From an uncultured Flavobacteriales bacterium (GTDB lineage Bacteria > Bacteroidota > Bacteroidia > Flavobacteriales_G > Salibacteraceae), in contig CALCCE010000150.1 of NCBI GenBank assembly GCA_937899835.1, positions 1 to 64,000 of the forward strand: DNA of 64,000 bases, written 5' to 3'. The notes below the pieces were generated by a model. That model did not search any database. It was not told the origin of the DNA and saw only the letters and a list, made by a program, of their open reading frames with translations. Each line of letters begins with the position of its first letter. Within the stretch, counting starts at the first letter, position 1. Positions 59,178 through 63,614 of the stretch are shown piece after piece. The position numbers and the translations under genes are program-made.

Positions 59178-59361
59178 ACACCAGAGGTCAACCTGGGTTT
59201 GCACTGTGGGCAAAACCCGGTTGTAAAGCGCGAAAATCGCCGTTTAAGTGGACAAAAATCGAAAAATTAATCGATTCTGTCCCTATGCATTGCGCCACAT
59301 TTCAACTACTGTAGCAGATTCCTTTTTCATTTGGCCCAGGTTTTGTTTATTGGGGTGTGCC

Positions 59362-60558
59362 ATGAAGTCCATTAAGATGCTTTCTTACATCAACCGATGT
59401 TGGGTTTTTCTCATACCCGCACTGCTGATTTTAGCTGCCTTTCGTCCGGCTCCGCAGGTGTCAGCAATAGACGGCTATTCTACTCAAGGAGCGGCTTCGG
59501 CTTATGCACCACTCATTCCAGAACACACTCCGATCAAGTTTGTAAGAACGGTCTTTCACATCATGCAGCGAGACGACGGCAGTGGTAATTTTCCCGATGA
59601 TTCTGCCAGCCGACAGTGGCTCACTTATTTATACCACAATCATTCGAGCGATGCTATGGGCGATTTACGGCCTATGAACTTACCCACAGCGTCCCCGTAT
59701 ATCCGCGACAGCCGAATTCGATTCCAGTTGGAGGGCATTTACTTTCATCAGGACGATTACGGTTGGAACATGGCGCACGACTCTCACCAGATGGGTGAAA
59801 AACTCTACAAAAAGTATGTTTTGGACGATCCAGGAACGGTTTATCCTCAATCGGCCATTCACATTTTTATTGGTGGTCAAGGTTCCAGTCACGGCCGGGC
59901 TAGTGGCATCGCCAGCGGTAAATGGATTTTGGTGAGTTCTGTTTACAAAAAATACCTTCAGGGCAATCACTGGATTCCCGCAGGTTTGTTGCGGCATGAG
60001 TTGGGTCATTCTTTGGGGCTTATCCATACCTGGAATGCTCCCGATCGGTGTGACGATACGCCACTAAATGCTGGCTGCTGGAACGTGAATGAACCGGCCA
60101 AGCCCGAATGTGCCACGCCTTCCAACAATGTGATGGATTACAACGCTTGCCAGTGTGCCCTTACCGCTTGCCAAATGGGGCGGATGCACCAGGCGTTGAT
60201 GGGTAAATTTGGCAAAGTAGACAATGTTTTGGTAACTGATTTCTGTAGAAGGGTAGATCCACTATTGACCATCAATTCGGGTGATTCGGTGGTATGGGTA
60301 GCCGACCGCTATCTCAAAAGTGATTTGCGCATTGAGCCAGGGGCTACCCTTGTCGTCCAGGGAGCGATTGGAATGCCGCGGTCTTCACGCATCGTGGTGC
60401 GGCCAGGAGGAAGGTTGATTGTCGAAAATGGTCGACTTTTTCAACCCTGCGGTGGGCAATGGAAGGGAATAAAACTGGTGAAAGGAAAACGCCAGGGTAA
60501 GCGTGTTATGGGCTCCTTAGAAATTACCGGGAAGGGCAAAGTGGAGCACACCCGCTAA
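59362..60558 (+). CDS. Pappalysin-like (M43-type) zinc metalloprotease, probably C-terminally shortened
   Basis: This 398-residue secreted protein has a signal peptide (residues 10-35), and a zinc motif H212-E213-L-G-H216-S-L-G-L-I-H222 followed by the Met-turn region NNVMDYNAC, as in metzincins of the pappalysin (M43) group. It probably cleaves proteins outside the cell. The end (SGDSVVWVADRYLKSDLRIEPGATLVV, GGRLIVENGRLFQPCGGQWKGIKL and ITGKGKVEHTR) resembles the first unit of the beta-helix-like regions that usually continue for hundreds of residues in Bacteroidota surface proteins, yet the gene stops there and has no T9SS sorting domain. The ATG at 59362 is chosen from several possible starts. 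Confidence 0.85.
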   Translation: MKSIKMLSYINRCWVFLIPALLILAAFRPAPQVSAIDGYSTQGAASAYAPLIPEHTPIKFVRTVFHIMQRDDGSGNFPDDSASRQWLTYLYHNHSSDAMGDLRPMNLPTASPYIRDSRIRFQLEGIYFHQDDYGWNMAHDSHQMGEKLYKKYVLDDPGTVYPQSAIHIFIGGQGSSHGRASGIASGKWILVSSVYKKYLQGNHWIPAGLLRHELGHSLGLIHTWNAPDRCDDTPLNAGCWNVNEPAKPECATPSNNVMDYNACQCALTACQMGRMHQALMGKFGKVDNVLVTDFCRRVDPLLTINSGDSVVWVADRYLKSDLRIEPGATLVVQGAIGMPRSSRIVVRPGGRLIVENGRLFQPCGGQWKGIKLVKGKRQGKRVMGSLEITGKGKVEHTR

Positions 60559-60561
60559 GCC

Positions 60562-60939
60562 TCAGGATTTTAAAATCACAAATTTTTGTGTCGACAATAG
60601 TTTGCCATTGGCTTCAAGGGTCAGAAAATAATGCCCATCGTCTAATTCAGTCAGGTCGGCTTTCAGCTTTTGTTGGCCTTTGGTGTGGGGTTCTTTGATC
60701 AATGTGGCAACTTCAGATCCCAAAATATCAAACACCTTTACCGTTACCGTTGCGTTGGAAGATAATTCAACTGGAATAAAGAGGTGGTTTTTGGCAGGAA
60801 TAGGATAAACGGTTTCTACTTTATCCGATAAAGCACTGTTTGAAGTTCCTGAGGTAGGATCAGCTATTTGTCCAATGGACAATTGGCAACAACACATCAA
60901 CAAGAAGGCTAAAAGAGTGGAAGAGTAGCGGTGAAGCAT
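60562..60939 (-). CDS. Exported protein consisting mainly of a T9SS type A sorting domain
   Basis: This 125-residue protein has a signal peptide (residues 1-23, ending QLSIGQ) and then, after a 17-residue linker, an 85-residue C-terminal domain of the type IX secretion system type A family: VETVYPIPAKNHLFIPVE, VTVKVFDILGSEVATLI, ADLTELDDGHYFLTLEANGK and TQKFVILKS. Normally this domain is attached to a large cargo. Here there is almost no cargo, which is unusual. It is convergent with the shortened metalloprotease gene, three bases away. A TAAATTTG box on the minus strand at 61000-61007 may be its promoter. Confidence 0.85.
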   Translation of the reverse strand: MLHRYSSTLLAFLLMCCCQLSIGQIADPTSGTSNSALSDKVETVYPIPAKNHLFIPVELSSNATVTVKVFDILGSEVATLIKEPHTKGQQKLKADLTELDDGHYFLTLEANGKLLSTQKFVILKS

Positions 60940-61010: not shown

Positions 61011-62183
61011 TTACAATTCACTGAGTTTTTTGGACGCTCTTTCGGCGTAAAAACCGCCAGCTTCTGAAATTTTCACCATGATGGTTTTAGCTTCCTTGCG
61101 CTGTCCGATCTTGAGGAAAGCCAGTGCTTTATACCATTCCGCTTCCTCGTCGAAATACGATTTTTGAAGGCGGGAAATTTGGTCGAAAAAAGCTATTGAT
61201 TGTTCGTATTGACCCAAATTGAAATAGGACAGTCCTCCATAAAACAAGGCGTTCTCATCTTCTGGGAAGTGCTTGAGAATTAAGTTGAATTTTTGAAGTG
61301 CCTTGCGGTACTTTCCTGCTTTTAATCGAAAAATACCCAACTCCAATACATCGTTGTAGGAGTACTGGAAAGTGAGCACTTCTGGCTGCCTTTTTTTGGC
61401 CTGCTCCGAGTTAGCATACTGAGGAGGTGTACTACCCGAAGTTACTTGCGCTACCTGTATGGTATTGTCTCTTTCAGCGTAGTCTACCGTCTTGTATTGT
61501 TCGATGTATTTCAGTGGCGGCACTTCTTTGGGAGTAGCAGGAATATTGGTTCTTTCCAAGGGAACTTCTGCAACCGGAAGCGTAGGGGCAGGTGCTACGG
61601 GATCAGTCTTTCGCTCAAGGATTTCTGAGGTAGTGTTTTCAACCTGGGTTGAATTTTCAGTCATCACAGGTTCGACTGCTTTATTTTCAGTGTTGGGAGC
61701 AGCCATTTTCTGAGGTTCAAGAGTTGTTTCTTCTGTTATGGTTTCATCACTTTCCTGAACTTCTTCAGGAGCATTCCGAATGAAATGCTCTTTTGAAATT
61801 TTTTCTGGGCTAATTTCTGTTTCTGAAGCCATGAGCGGCTCTATCGGGTCGGTCTCAACCACCTGCCAGGTGATGAAGCCCAATAAAATAGCAGCAAAAC
61901 CCGCTCCAAGCCACCATTTGGCACCTTTGAAAAGGGAAGTACCCGAACCTCCAGCCATGGCTATATGCTGCGCCTCAGAGCGAAGTTCTTCGATCGCGGA
62001 AGCAGACACGGGCACCAGAGCAAACCCCTCTACAGCATCTTGGCAAAGGGGGCAATCCAGCAGGTGGCGCTCCAAGGCATGTTGCGCCTCTGGTGCCAAA
62101 GTCTGTTGGGCATAGGCCCTCAGTTGGTCGCCATCCGGGCAAGAGCCAGGTTCAAAAAGAGTTATTTGCGGTGTAGGATTCAT
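61011..62183 (-). CDS. Zinc-finger anti-sigma factor with outside TPR region
   Basis: This 390-residue protein has a cytoplasmic zinc-binding anti-sigma domain (C15, and H40-x3-C44-x2-C47 in ALERHLLDCPLC), a transmembrane helix at about residues 90-108, a long Thr/Glu/Pro-rich linker (about 115-240), and a C-terminal TPR region (about 265-390: FRLKAGKYRKALQKFNLILKHFP and LGQYEQSIAFFDQISRL). The zinc domain should hold the ECF sigma factor; the TPR part lies outside and could sense a partner. It overlaps the sigma gene by 32 bases. Confidence 0.9.
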   Translation of the reverse strand: MNPTPQITLFEPGSCPDGDQLRAYAQQTLAPEAQHALERHLLDCPLCQDAVEGFALVPVSASAIEELRSEAQHIAMAGGSGTSLFKGAKWWLGAGFAAILLGFITWQVVETDPIEPLMASETEISPEKISKEHFIRNAPEEVQESDETITEETTLEPQKMAAPNTENKAVEPVMTENSTQVENTTSEILERKTDPVAPAPTLPVAEVPLERTNIPATPKEVPPLKYIEQYKTVDYAERDNTIQVAQVTSGSTPPQYANSEQAKKRQPEVLTFQYSYNDVLELGIFRLKAGKYRKALQKFNLILKHFPEDENALFYGGLSYFNLGQYEQSIAFFDQISRLQKSYFDEEAEWYKALAFLKIGQRKEAKTIMVKISEAGGFYAERASKKLSEL

Positions 62184-62757
62184 GATTTTTCGTCATAAAT
62201 ATCCGGAGGTTACGCTTGCCGTTTTGCAGGTAACTTTTCACTTGCTTTAGGCTGTAGCCAGTTATTTCAGCTACTTCGGTGTAACACTTTTTCTGAAGGT
62301 AAAACAAGTCGATGCATTCGCGCTGGGGCGGCTTGAGCTGTTGCATAGCGCTTTCCAACTGGTTTAAAGATTGCTCCCGGGCTTCTGCCTCGGCGATTCC
62401 GTCTCCAAACGCAGGGGATTGTTGCATCTCAGCTTCCAATCGTTCTTGTTTTTTGCGCTTGCTCTTTTGTTCCCGAAGGGCCATCAGGCACTGATTTCGG
62501 GCCACCTGGAAAACCCAGGAGCGAAAGTTTTGAACTTCGTGACGATGAAGCTCTTTCACCAACTTTTCAAACAATTGAAGCACAGCATCTTTGGCCTCAG
62601 CTTCGTTTTCCAGGTATTTTAAACACAATCCAAACAAGGAACCAGCATAGCGGTCAAAAAGCTGAGCCAGCGCTTGCTGGTCAGCTTTTTGCCGGTAACG
62701 ATTTACCAGTACCTCGTCGGCAATTGGACTGTCTTTTCTGGAAGTTACGAAAGCCAT
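62152..62757 (-). CDS. ECF-type RNA polymerase sigma factor
   Basis: This 201-residue protein has region 2 (residues 20-90: ALAQLFDRYAGSLFGLCLKYLENEAEAKDAVLQLFEKL and FRSWVFQVARNQCLMALRE) and region 4 (130-190: QLKPPQRECIDLFYLQKKCYTEVAEITG and LKQVKSYLQNGKRNLRI). It ends with an unusual tail (MTKNHESYTANNSF). The anti-sigma gene overlaps it by 32 bases, so the two are coupled. The plug-domain gene ends 48 bases before it on the same strand. Its own start is the ATG at 62757. Confidence 0.93.
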   Translation of the reverse strand: MAFVTSRKDSPIADEVLVNRYRQKADQQALAQLFDRYAGSLFGLCLKYLENEAEAKDAVLQLFEKLVKELHRHEVQNFRSWVFQVARNQCLMALREQKSKRKKQERLEAEMQQSPAFGDGIAEAEAREQSLNQLESAMQQLKPPQRECIDLFYLQKKCYTEVAEITGYSLKQVKSYLQNGKRNLRIFMTKNHESYTANNSF

Positions 62758-62805
62758 TCAGTTGCTTCAGAAATATATAAACATCATCCTCCGGATGTAA
62801 GTCAA

Positions 62806-63519
62806 TTAGCGTTGTCTCGCATTGTAAAGTTCGAAGAAACTTTTGGTTTCTACGATAACAGCTCCCCCAATCAGGTCGCCGTAGGCGGCAGGCACTCCTC
62901 CGGTATACACCGTTAAAGAGCCAATGGCGGTAGAGGGAACACCCAAACTACCGTCACGGGTTTTTACCCCGTCCACAAAATATACCACCGAACCCGCACG
63001 GGCACCACGGAAATAAACCGGTTGTCCTTCATCTTGCTGGTAAACACCCGGAGTTGTACTGGCAATCAGGGCGCCAGGGTTGCGCATTTGTGGGCTTTTT
63101 TGAATTTCTGCTGCCAGAATGGTCATGGCAGTAGGATCTTCTGCATTTATAAGTGGAACTCTGTGGCCTGTAATAACCACAGGAGGCAGACCTACTCCTG
63201 AAACCAATTCAGTAGCTTCCATTCGCGTAATTTTATCTGGGTTAACCCGAATATTTTCAATTACTCGTTTTTGGTATCCCACATAAGAAATAGCGAGGCT
63301 GTAGAGACCCGCCTCTAAAGGCTTGATGATAAACCGTCCTTCGATGTCGGTGGTGACCCCTGTGGTCACGCCCATGTAGTCATAAGAGACATTGGCAAAC
63401 GCGGCCGGAACCAATTGGCCATCTTCATCCAAAAATACCTGCCCCTGGATGGCACCGGTGCCCGCCCAGGCAAAAATGGCGATCAGGAGGGCAGCGCAGG
63501 TTAAACTAAATTGCTTCAT
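62806..63519 (-). CDS. CarboxypepD_reg/TonB-plug protein without a beta-barrel
   Basis: This 237-residue protein has a signal peptide (residues 1-23), a carboxypeptidase-regulatory-like beta-sandwich (IQGQVFLDEDGQLVPAAFANVSYDYMG, DIEGRFIIKPLEAGLYSLAISYVGYQKR) and a TonB-receptor plug domain (LAAEIQKSPQMRNPGALIASTTPGVYQQDEGQPVYFRGARAGSVVYFVDGVK, with the final GGAVIVETK). A normal receptor would continue into a 22-strand barrel; here the gene stops at residue 237 and only 48 bases separate it from the sigma gene, with no barrel remnant. It is not a simple truncation by a recent frameshift as far as I can see. It probably signals or assists rather than transports. Confidence 0.87.
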   Translation of the reverse strand: MKQFSLTCAALLIAIFAWAGTGAIQGQVFLDEDGQLVPAAFANVSYDYMGVTTGVTTDIEGRFIIKPLEAGLYSLAISYVGYQKRVIENIRVNPDKITRMEATELVSGVGLPPVVITGHRVPLINAEDPTAMTILAAEIQKSPQMRNPGALIASTTPGVYQQDEGQPVYFRGARAGSVVYFVDGVKTRDGSLGVPSTAIGSLTVYTGGVPAAYGDLIGGAVIVETKSFFELYNARQR

Positions 63520-63614
63520 ACTTCAATTGTTTTTAGTTGTTCGTCAGGCACATGATCAAGCGTCTGTAGGTAGGATGATATTGGCTTAACAATTCCATAA
63601 AAAAAATTTGAACT

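Follow-up and report, generated by a model that had tools for sequence, protein, structure and literature searches.

The window, as we call the whole 64,000-nucleotide stretch of DNA analyzed here, encodes a TonB receptor plug protein without a barrel, an ECF sigma factor, and an anti-sigma factor predicted to carry a periplasmic TPR domain. We propose, with moderate confidence, that these form an autoregulated envelope-signaling unit, in which the plug protein is a periplasmic co-regulator that acts on the anti-sigma factor. The gene content, architecture, conservation, and shared promoter of the unit were all established at the level of sequence and predicted structure. The unit suggests that part of a receptor has been turned into a signaling or stress-response protein.

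The three genes lie on the minus strand, with the plug gene at positions 62806–63519 (237 amino acids), the sigma factor gene at 62152–62757 (201 amino acids), and the anti-sigma factor gene at 61011–62183 (390 amino acids). The gap of 48 bases between the plug and sigma factor genes and the overlap of 32 bases between the sigma and anti-sigma factor genes, both claimed along with this order by an earlier note made from the letters alone, agree with the ORF coordinates. Just downstream of the anti-sigma factor gene, positions 60562–60939 encode a small secreted protein of 125 amino acids with little beyond a type IX secretion sorting domain; it is not conserved along with the three-gene unit. 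A secreted protein with an HELGHSLGLIHTW zinc-metalloprotease motif is encoded on the plus strand at 59248–60558.

The plug protein, identified from its ORF, Pfam, an AlphaFold model, and a profile match, begins with a hydrophobic signal-type segment. This is followed by a CarboxypepD_reg-like domain (residues 24–102; positions 63214–63450, minus strand; PF13620, E 5.9e-12) and a TonB receptor plug domain (positions 62845–63129, minus strand; PF07715, E 1.7e-8), which spans residues 131–219 in Pfam and approximately residues 131–225 by the strands and helices of the model. The chain stops right behind the plug domain and has no barrel in Pfam, as the earlier note had it. The AlphaFold model (pLDDT 88.7) consists of an N-terminal transthyretin-like domain and the plug, with nothing beyond, and its Foldseek matches are transthyretin-like domains of the carboxypeptidase-D type and the N-terminal extensions of SusC. 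The sequence profile of the protein covers SusC-type receptors across both domains. No STN domain was found in the plug protein by Pfam, which at E<=1 returned solely CarboxypepD_reg, Plug, and a chance match to DUF4198. An identity with a BAM subunit of Flavobacterium was rejected, BamG being FadL-like and of a different family (PMC12611786). A contact made by the plug itself through a TonB box was likewise set aside, since no clear TonB box was seen in stand-alone plugs, a weak negative given that the regular expression used was too strict for boxes of the VVVGYG type.

The middle gene encodes an ECF sigma factor, as had been proposed, with regions 2 and 4 recognized by Pfam (Sigma70_r2 and Sigma70_r4_2) and a match to NCBIfam sigma70-ECF (E 5e-25). 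The anti-sigma factor was assigned from its ORF, the overlap with the sigma factor gene, and its model, and Pfam assigns TPR families and a sub-threshold zf-HC2 to it. Its AlphaFold model has in order a helical N-terminal domain (helices at residues 18–77), a single transmembrane helix (residues 86–108; positions 61860–61928, minus strand; hydropathy peak at residues 91–110), a disordered periplasmic linker (residues 109–220; positions 61524–61859, minus strand; pLDDT mostly <50), a small β element, and a TPR domain (residues 276–389; positions 61017–61358, minus strand; Pfam TPR_6 and others; pLDDT ~97). The model thus places the TPR region outside the membrane, as expected from the earlier note, and the closest fold to it in the PDB by Foldseek is the TPR of YbgF (2xev). 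The four putative zinc ligands named in that note (C15, H40, C44, and C47) are all present. Most relatives within the same family have lost them, and zinc is therefore not essential; zinc sensing was ruled out as the core mechanism on this ground. Class I anti-sigma factors are marked by an ASD/zf-HC2, an N-terminal helical domain, and often an Hx3Cx2C motif, and the window anti-sigma factor falls in this class, which has a mixed zinc and nonzinc make-up and whose members in Bacteroidota are rarely (6%) encoded beside their ECF sigma factors (PMC7406223).

The order of the three genes recurs widely. At the class level, stand-alone plugs of many further families are encoded directly before sigma and anti-sigma factor genes, or divergently beside them. 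Among all fetched loci, we counted 27 co-directional and 11 divergent units, or 24 and 11 after removal of duplicates, giving 35 distinct loci. In the window's own family, the short plug occurs in those genomes that have a full anti-sigma factor homologue (G002, G007, G010, G012, G017, and G025), and both are absent from the remaining genomes. In G022 the plug gene has two stops and the anti-sigma factor gene is cut short, so that the unit decays jointly. The recurrence in 35 distinct loci and this shared presence and absence put the gene order far beyond chance, and conservation in relatives is what the earlier note had asked to see. An anti-sigma factor of the TPR type was present in 30 of 37 genomes with a stand-alone plug versus 23 of 161 without one, as tallied by hand (Fisher p ~8e-15, a value that ignores the relatedness of the genomes).

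The plug genes also share a promoter. Their upstream regions in relatives, members of other families included, contain a conserved pair of elements, TRTGGAAT-N14-CATCY, which is ECF-like in form. An exact match to this pair, the putative sigma-dependent promoter TATGGAAT-N14-CATCC (positions 63573–63599, minus strand), is located ~54 bases upstream of the plug start codon in the window and is the sole mismatch-free match in the 64 kb. Counted with the pattern T[AG]TGGAA[TA]-N13-15-[CG][AGT][TC][CT], the promoter occurs upstream of 16 of 23 co-directional plug genes; a strict match is absent in seven co-directional units. In the divergent units the pattern precedes eight of 11 plug genes and nine of 11 sigma factor genes. 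The rate for all these comparisons in shuffled sequence is 0.1–0.8%. It was found before none of the 23 sigma factor genes inside co-directional operons and before none of the full-length receptors checked. Plug genes far from a sigma factor gene have a copy of the promoter in G059, G126, G122, and two genomes of family f39. In this last family (L237, L239, and L241), the stand-alone plug gene is followed by the gene for an M13 (neprilysin-like) peptidase.

The window's genome contains three exact matches to the promoter; matches with one mismatch were at control level there and were left out of the analysis. The first exact match is that of the plug–sigma–anti-sigma operon. The second precedes a gene on contig C181, a homologue of the fourth gene that follows the anti-sigma factor gene in the near relatives G002, G010, G012, G017, and G025, and whose product consists of a CarboxypepD_reg domain and ~300 amino acids. 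The presence of the promoter at this relocated gene gives good independent support both for the site itself and for autoregulation of the operon. The third match (G000:C54:5756-5782) is 284 bases upstream of an unrelated partial ORF of 405 amino acids and may be due to chance. Based on the promoter, the unit is probably autoregulated, with the plug as a member of the regulon, and the sigma factor itself apparently activates all three genes.

A plug that is driven by the sigma factor is common to our model and to its strongest rival, in which the plug is an output only. The sigma factor would then respond through the TPR to another periplasmic cue, and the plug would be an effector without contact to the anti-sigma factor, serving for example to cap or chaperone barrels of the outer membrane. 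Since the promoter makes the plug gene an apparent target of the sigma factor, it is possible to read the plug as output and not as input, and this type of promoter is found at the plug gene also in divergent units and where the sigma factor gene is distant. Sister units of the same sigma clade have a divergent gene for a different CarboxypepD_reg protein, with a VWA domain (YfbK), and the same promoter type (TRTGGAAW-N14-CATC) stands before 19 of 22 of these genes, so the position looks like an exchangeable effector slot. In addition, TPR anti-sigma factors exist in genomes without any stand-alone plug, and the TPR must therefore have other uses. We consider an output-only plug a serious possibility but hold it to be somewhat doubtful, on account of two observations that connect the plug to the TPR.

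The first concerns plug-linked anti-sigma factors, in which a strand-like element immediately precedes the TPR and lies, with little variation, ~160 residues from the C-terminus. In the window this candidate plug-docking element is YIEQYKTVDY (residues 226–235; positions 61479–61508, minus strand). A position-restricted pattern for the element, written after inspection of the linked set, matched 29 of 32 plug-linked versus seven of 34 unlinked TPR-type anti-sigma factors, and 3–4% after shuffling. For five of the seven unlinked matches, the genome has a stand-alone plug elsewhere, and in G122 and G149 the element led us to expect such an unlinked plug, which was then located. Three genomes with several TPR-type anti-sigma factors (G077, G116, and G180) have the element or a close variant in only one of those read, which argues against an output-only plug. 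The element is present in G105 and the near-identical L101, for which no plug was found, and in G053 and G132 the plug belongs to another clade and the element is missing. A profile of 19 residues across the element, trained on the window's order only, separated linked from unlinked anti-sigma factors moderately (AUC 0.88), partly owing to plugs that are present in genomes counted as unlinked. Some of the co-variation could be due to common descent within a single orthologous clade. That the element tracks the presence of the plug is consistent with contact between plug and TPR.

The second observation comes from family f5 (L226, L227, L232, L234, and L240), where the plug gene is followed by the gene for a secreted multi-TPR protein of ~620 amino acids (617 amino acids). 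We found no member of this sigma clade in these genomes, and the sigma-type promoter precedes none of the five plug genes. The pairing of plug and TPR thus stays where the sigma factor is missing, which speaks against the output-only explanation and provides a second, independent hint of plug–TPR contact. A third hint comes from the sister group with the same sigma clade, whose anti-sigma factors carry TonB receptor modules; in Mucilaginibacter galii, a multi-module anti-sigma factor is encoded beside a CarboxypepD_reg-VWA (YfbK) gene (L106:6554-8167 and L106:3951-5906). The chain of this sister anti-sigma factor includes a Plug domain, CarboxypepD_reg, a TonB-box-like VVVVGYG stretch, and TonB_C, and such a fusion of the plug is likewise consistent with contact. 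The earlier proposal that the plug is read by the TPR region of the anti-sigma factor is plausible in light of these comparisons.

The sister units differ from that of the window in having TonB_C as the reader domain of the anti-sigma factor and a VWA protein as the partner, and resemble it in sigma clade and in the type of promoter that precedes the gene of the CarboxypepD_reg partner. Among 43 anti-sigma factors scanned from this sigma clade in Pedobacter, Mucilaginibacter, Cytophagales, and others, 22 end in TonB_C and 10 have CarboxypepD_reg, one of these (L106) having Plug as well. Judged by such domain matches, this sigma clade goes across the phylum with proteins built of the N-terminal modules of TonB receptors. 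It forms a wider sigma family in Bacteroidota that is apparently undescribed; a search of the open literature on TPR and VWA proteins as partners of ECF sigma factors in Bacteroidota turned up no account of these units. The anti-sigma factor family of the window is a sister of the forms with TonB_C and CarboxypepD_reg modules, and so the unit is a parallel variant, which makes it doubtful that it is a "stripped-down" signaling route, as had been suggested in the earlier note. Two more units with sigma factors of this clade are present in the window's genome. At G000:C138 (L273:5678-10100), a TPR-type anti-sigma factor without the pre-TPR element is followed by a membrane TPR protein, with a DUF4139 gene divergent upstream, and the unit at G000:C11 (L274:5912-7590) has an anti-sigma factor of the TonB_C type.

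Our model of an autoregulated unit with the plug as co-regulator would operate as follows. The single-pass anti-sigma factor would hold the ECF sigma factor and would present, on its periplasmic side, a long disordered tether that leads to the small strand element and the TPR. Once released, the sigma factor would transcribe the plug–sigma–anti-sigma operon from the TRTGGAAT-N14-CATCY promoter, and from the same type of promoter elsewhere in the genome it would transcribe the gene for the CarboxypepD_reg protein. As a co-regulator, the plug protein would act on the strand element and the TPR, like RseB on RseA; it would be made as part of the response and would also serve as a partner for the periplasmic end of the anti-sigma factor. 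The natural signal would probably be the state of outer-membrane proteins of the TonB receptor type, whose N-terminal modules the plug copies. In this scheme we infer the strictness of the autoregulation, the contact between plug and anti-sigma factor, the sign of the feedback, and the signal. A more specific version, in which the barrel-freed plug docks on the pre-TPR strand as an RseB-like co-regulator and reports the assembly state of TonB receptors, is put forward tentatively, and we think it unlikely to hold as a whole.

Another explanation is that the plug works in trans, filling a barrel that has no plug of its own, with the sigma unit supplying the plug on demand. The stand-alone plugs do keep the canonical plug signatures, with invariant R, G, and D positions in the alignment. 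However, 22 of the 23 PF00593 barrel matches in the genome are in frames of ~650–1250 amino acids, which are long enough to include a plug; the exception (C300:120-1208, 444 amino acids) is near a contig end. Nor is a barrel gene linked to the unit: none stands beside it in the relatives read, which also rules out a split receptor with its barrel in the next gene. The type IX secretion system has a Plug for SprA (Fjoh_1759), but no such chain occurs among the PDB matches of the plug or its profile, which speaks against that identity as far as these sequence matches go. We regard a plug acting in trans as improbable.

Among 60 relatives, the best matches to the plug fall sharply into two classes, frames of ~230–290 amino acids and a TonB receptor of ~1220–1300 amino acids. 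The latter is encoded by a separate gene in nearly every genome and is the closest full-length homologue of the stand-alone plug. Behind this near-universal CarboxypepD_reg-plug-barrel receptor (G000:C286, L095:2958-6692, and L096–L099) a large, conserved secreted protein is encoded, joined in L099 by a possibly PorV-like gene. A tree built on N-terminal regions groups the full-length receptors together (88% of bootstraps) and places other receptors of the window's own genome in another clade; it does not reject a single clade that takes in every stand-alone plug (p-AU 0.36). The stand-alone plugs of many families also share the same end point. These comparisons indicate that the plug gene is old and not a recent truncation. 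A full barrel gene is not the usual continuation of the plug gene, the case in which the earlier note would have seen a truncation, and the barrel receptor is instead a different, separately conserved gene. A truncated TonB receptor, pseudogene, or annotation artefact in a fortuitous gene order, to which the ubiquity of these close full-length homologues might point, is therefore extremely improbable in view of the common end point and the separation from the full-length clade.

The unit has likenesses to several known systems. RseB is a periplasmic product of the sigma-E operon and acts on RseA. As in RpoE-RseA-RseB of Proteobacteria, the sigma factor is encoded with a single-pass anti-sigma factor and with a periplasmic protein that is soluble, and the promoter evidence suggests that the sigma factor transcribes all three genes. 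The unit differs from that system in its CarboxypepD_reg-plug partner and in the tethered TPR of the anti-sigma factor, and neither Pfam nor NCBIfam matched RseA or RseB domains in the three proteins. Working like RseB on RseA is therefore an analogy and does not signify membership. The FecA/FecR/FecI systems, including the SusC-STN/FecR systems of Bacteroidota, similarly encode a TonB receptor module, an anti-sigma factor, and an ECF sigma factor together. However, the window unit is not such a system, since it has no barrel and, as the earlier note had stated and Pfam and NCBIfam agree, no STN and no FecR domain; the receptor plug is a separate protein. Dma anti-sigma factors, which occur only in Bacteroidota, have an N-terminal anti-sigma domain, one transmembrane helix, a long disordered tether, and a C-terminal β-barrel (PMC13088901). 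Their cognate sigma factors are of the ECF21 group. The window anti-sigma factor shares the restriction to Bacteroidota and this arrangement up to a folded C-terminal domain, but by its model it is not a Dma, as its C-terminus is a TPR instead of a β-barrel and a plug protein is encoded alongside. Lastly, although the TPR of CpoB/YbgF is the nearest solved fold, the TPR here is fused to an anti-sigma factor and has no Tol-Pal context.

TonB receptors are the dominant outer-membrane proteins of Bacteroidota, and little is known of how these bacteria monitor the condition of an outer membrane crowded with TonB and SusC receptors. What is new here is the promoter before the plug genes, the pre-TPR element that follows the plug, and the f5 plug beside a secreted TPR protein. 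A separate plug in a sigma factor unit, along with a recognizable promoter and a candidate docking element, provides a directly testable entry point to this sensing.
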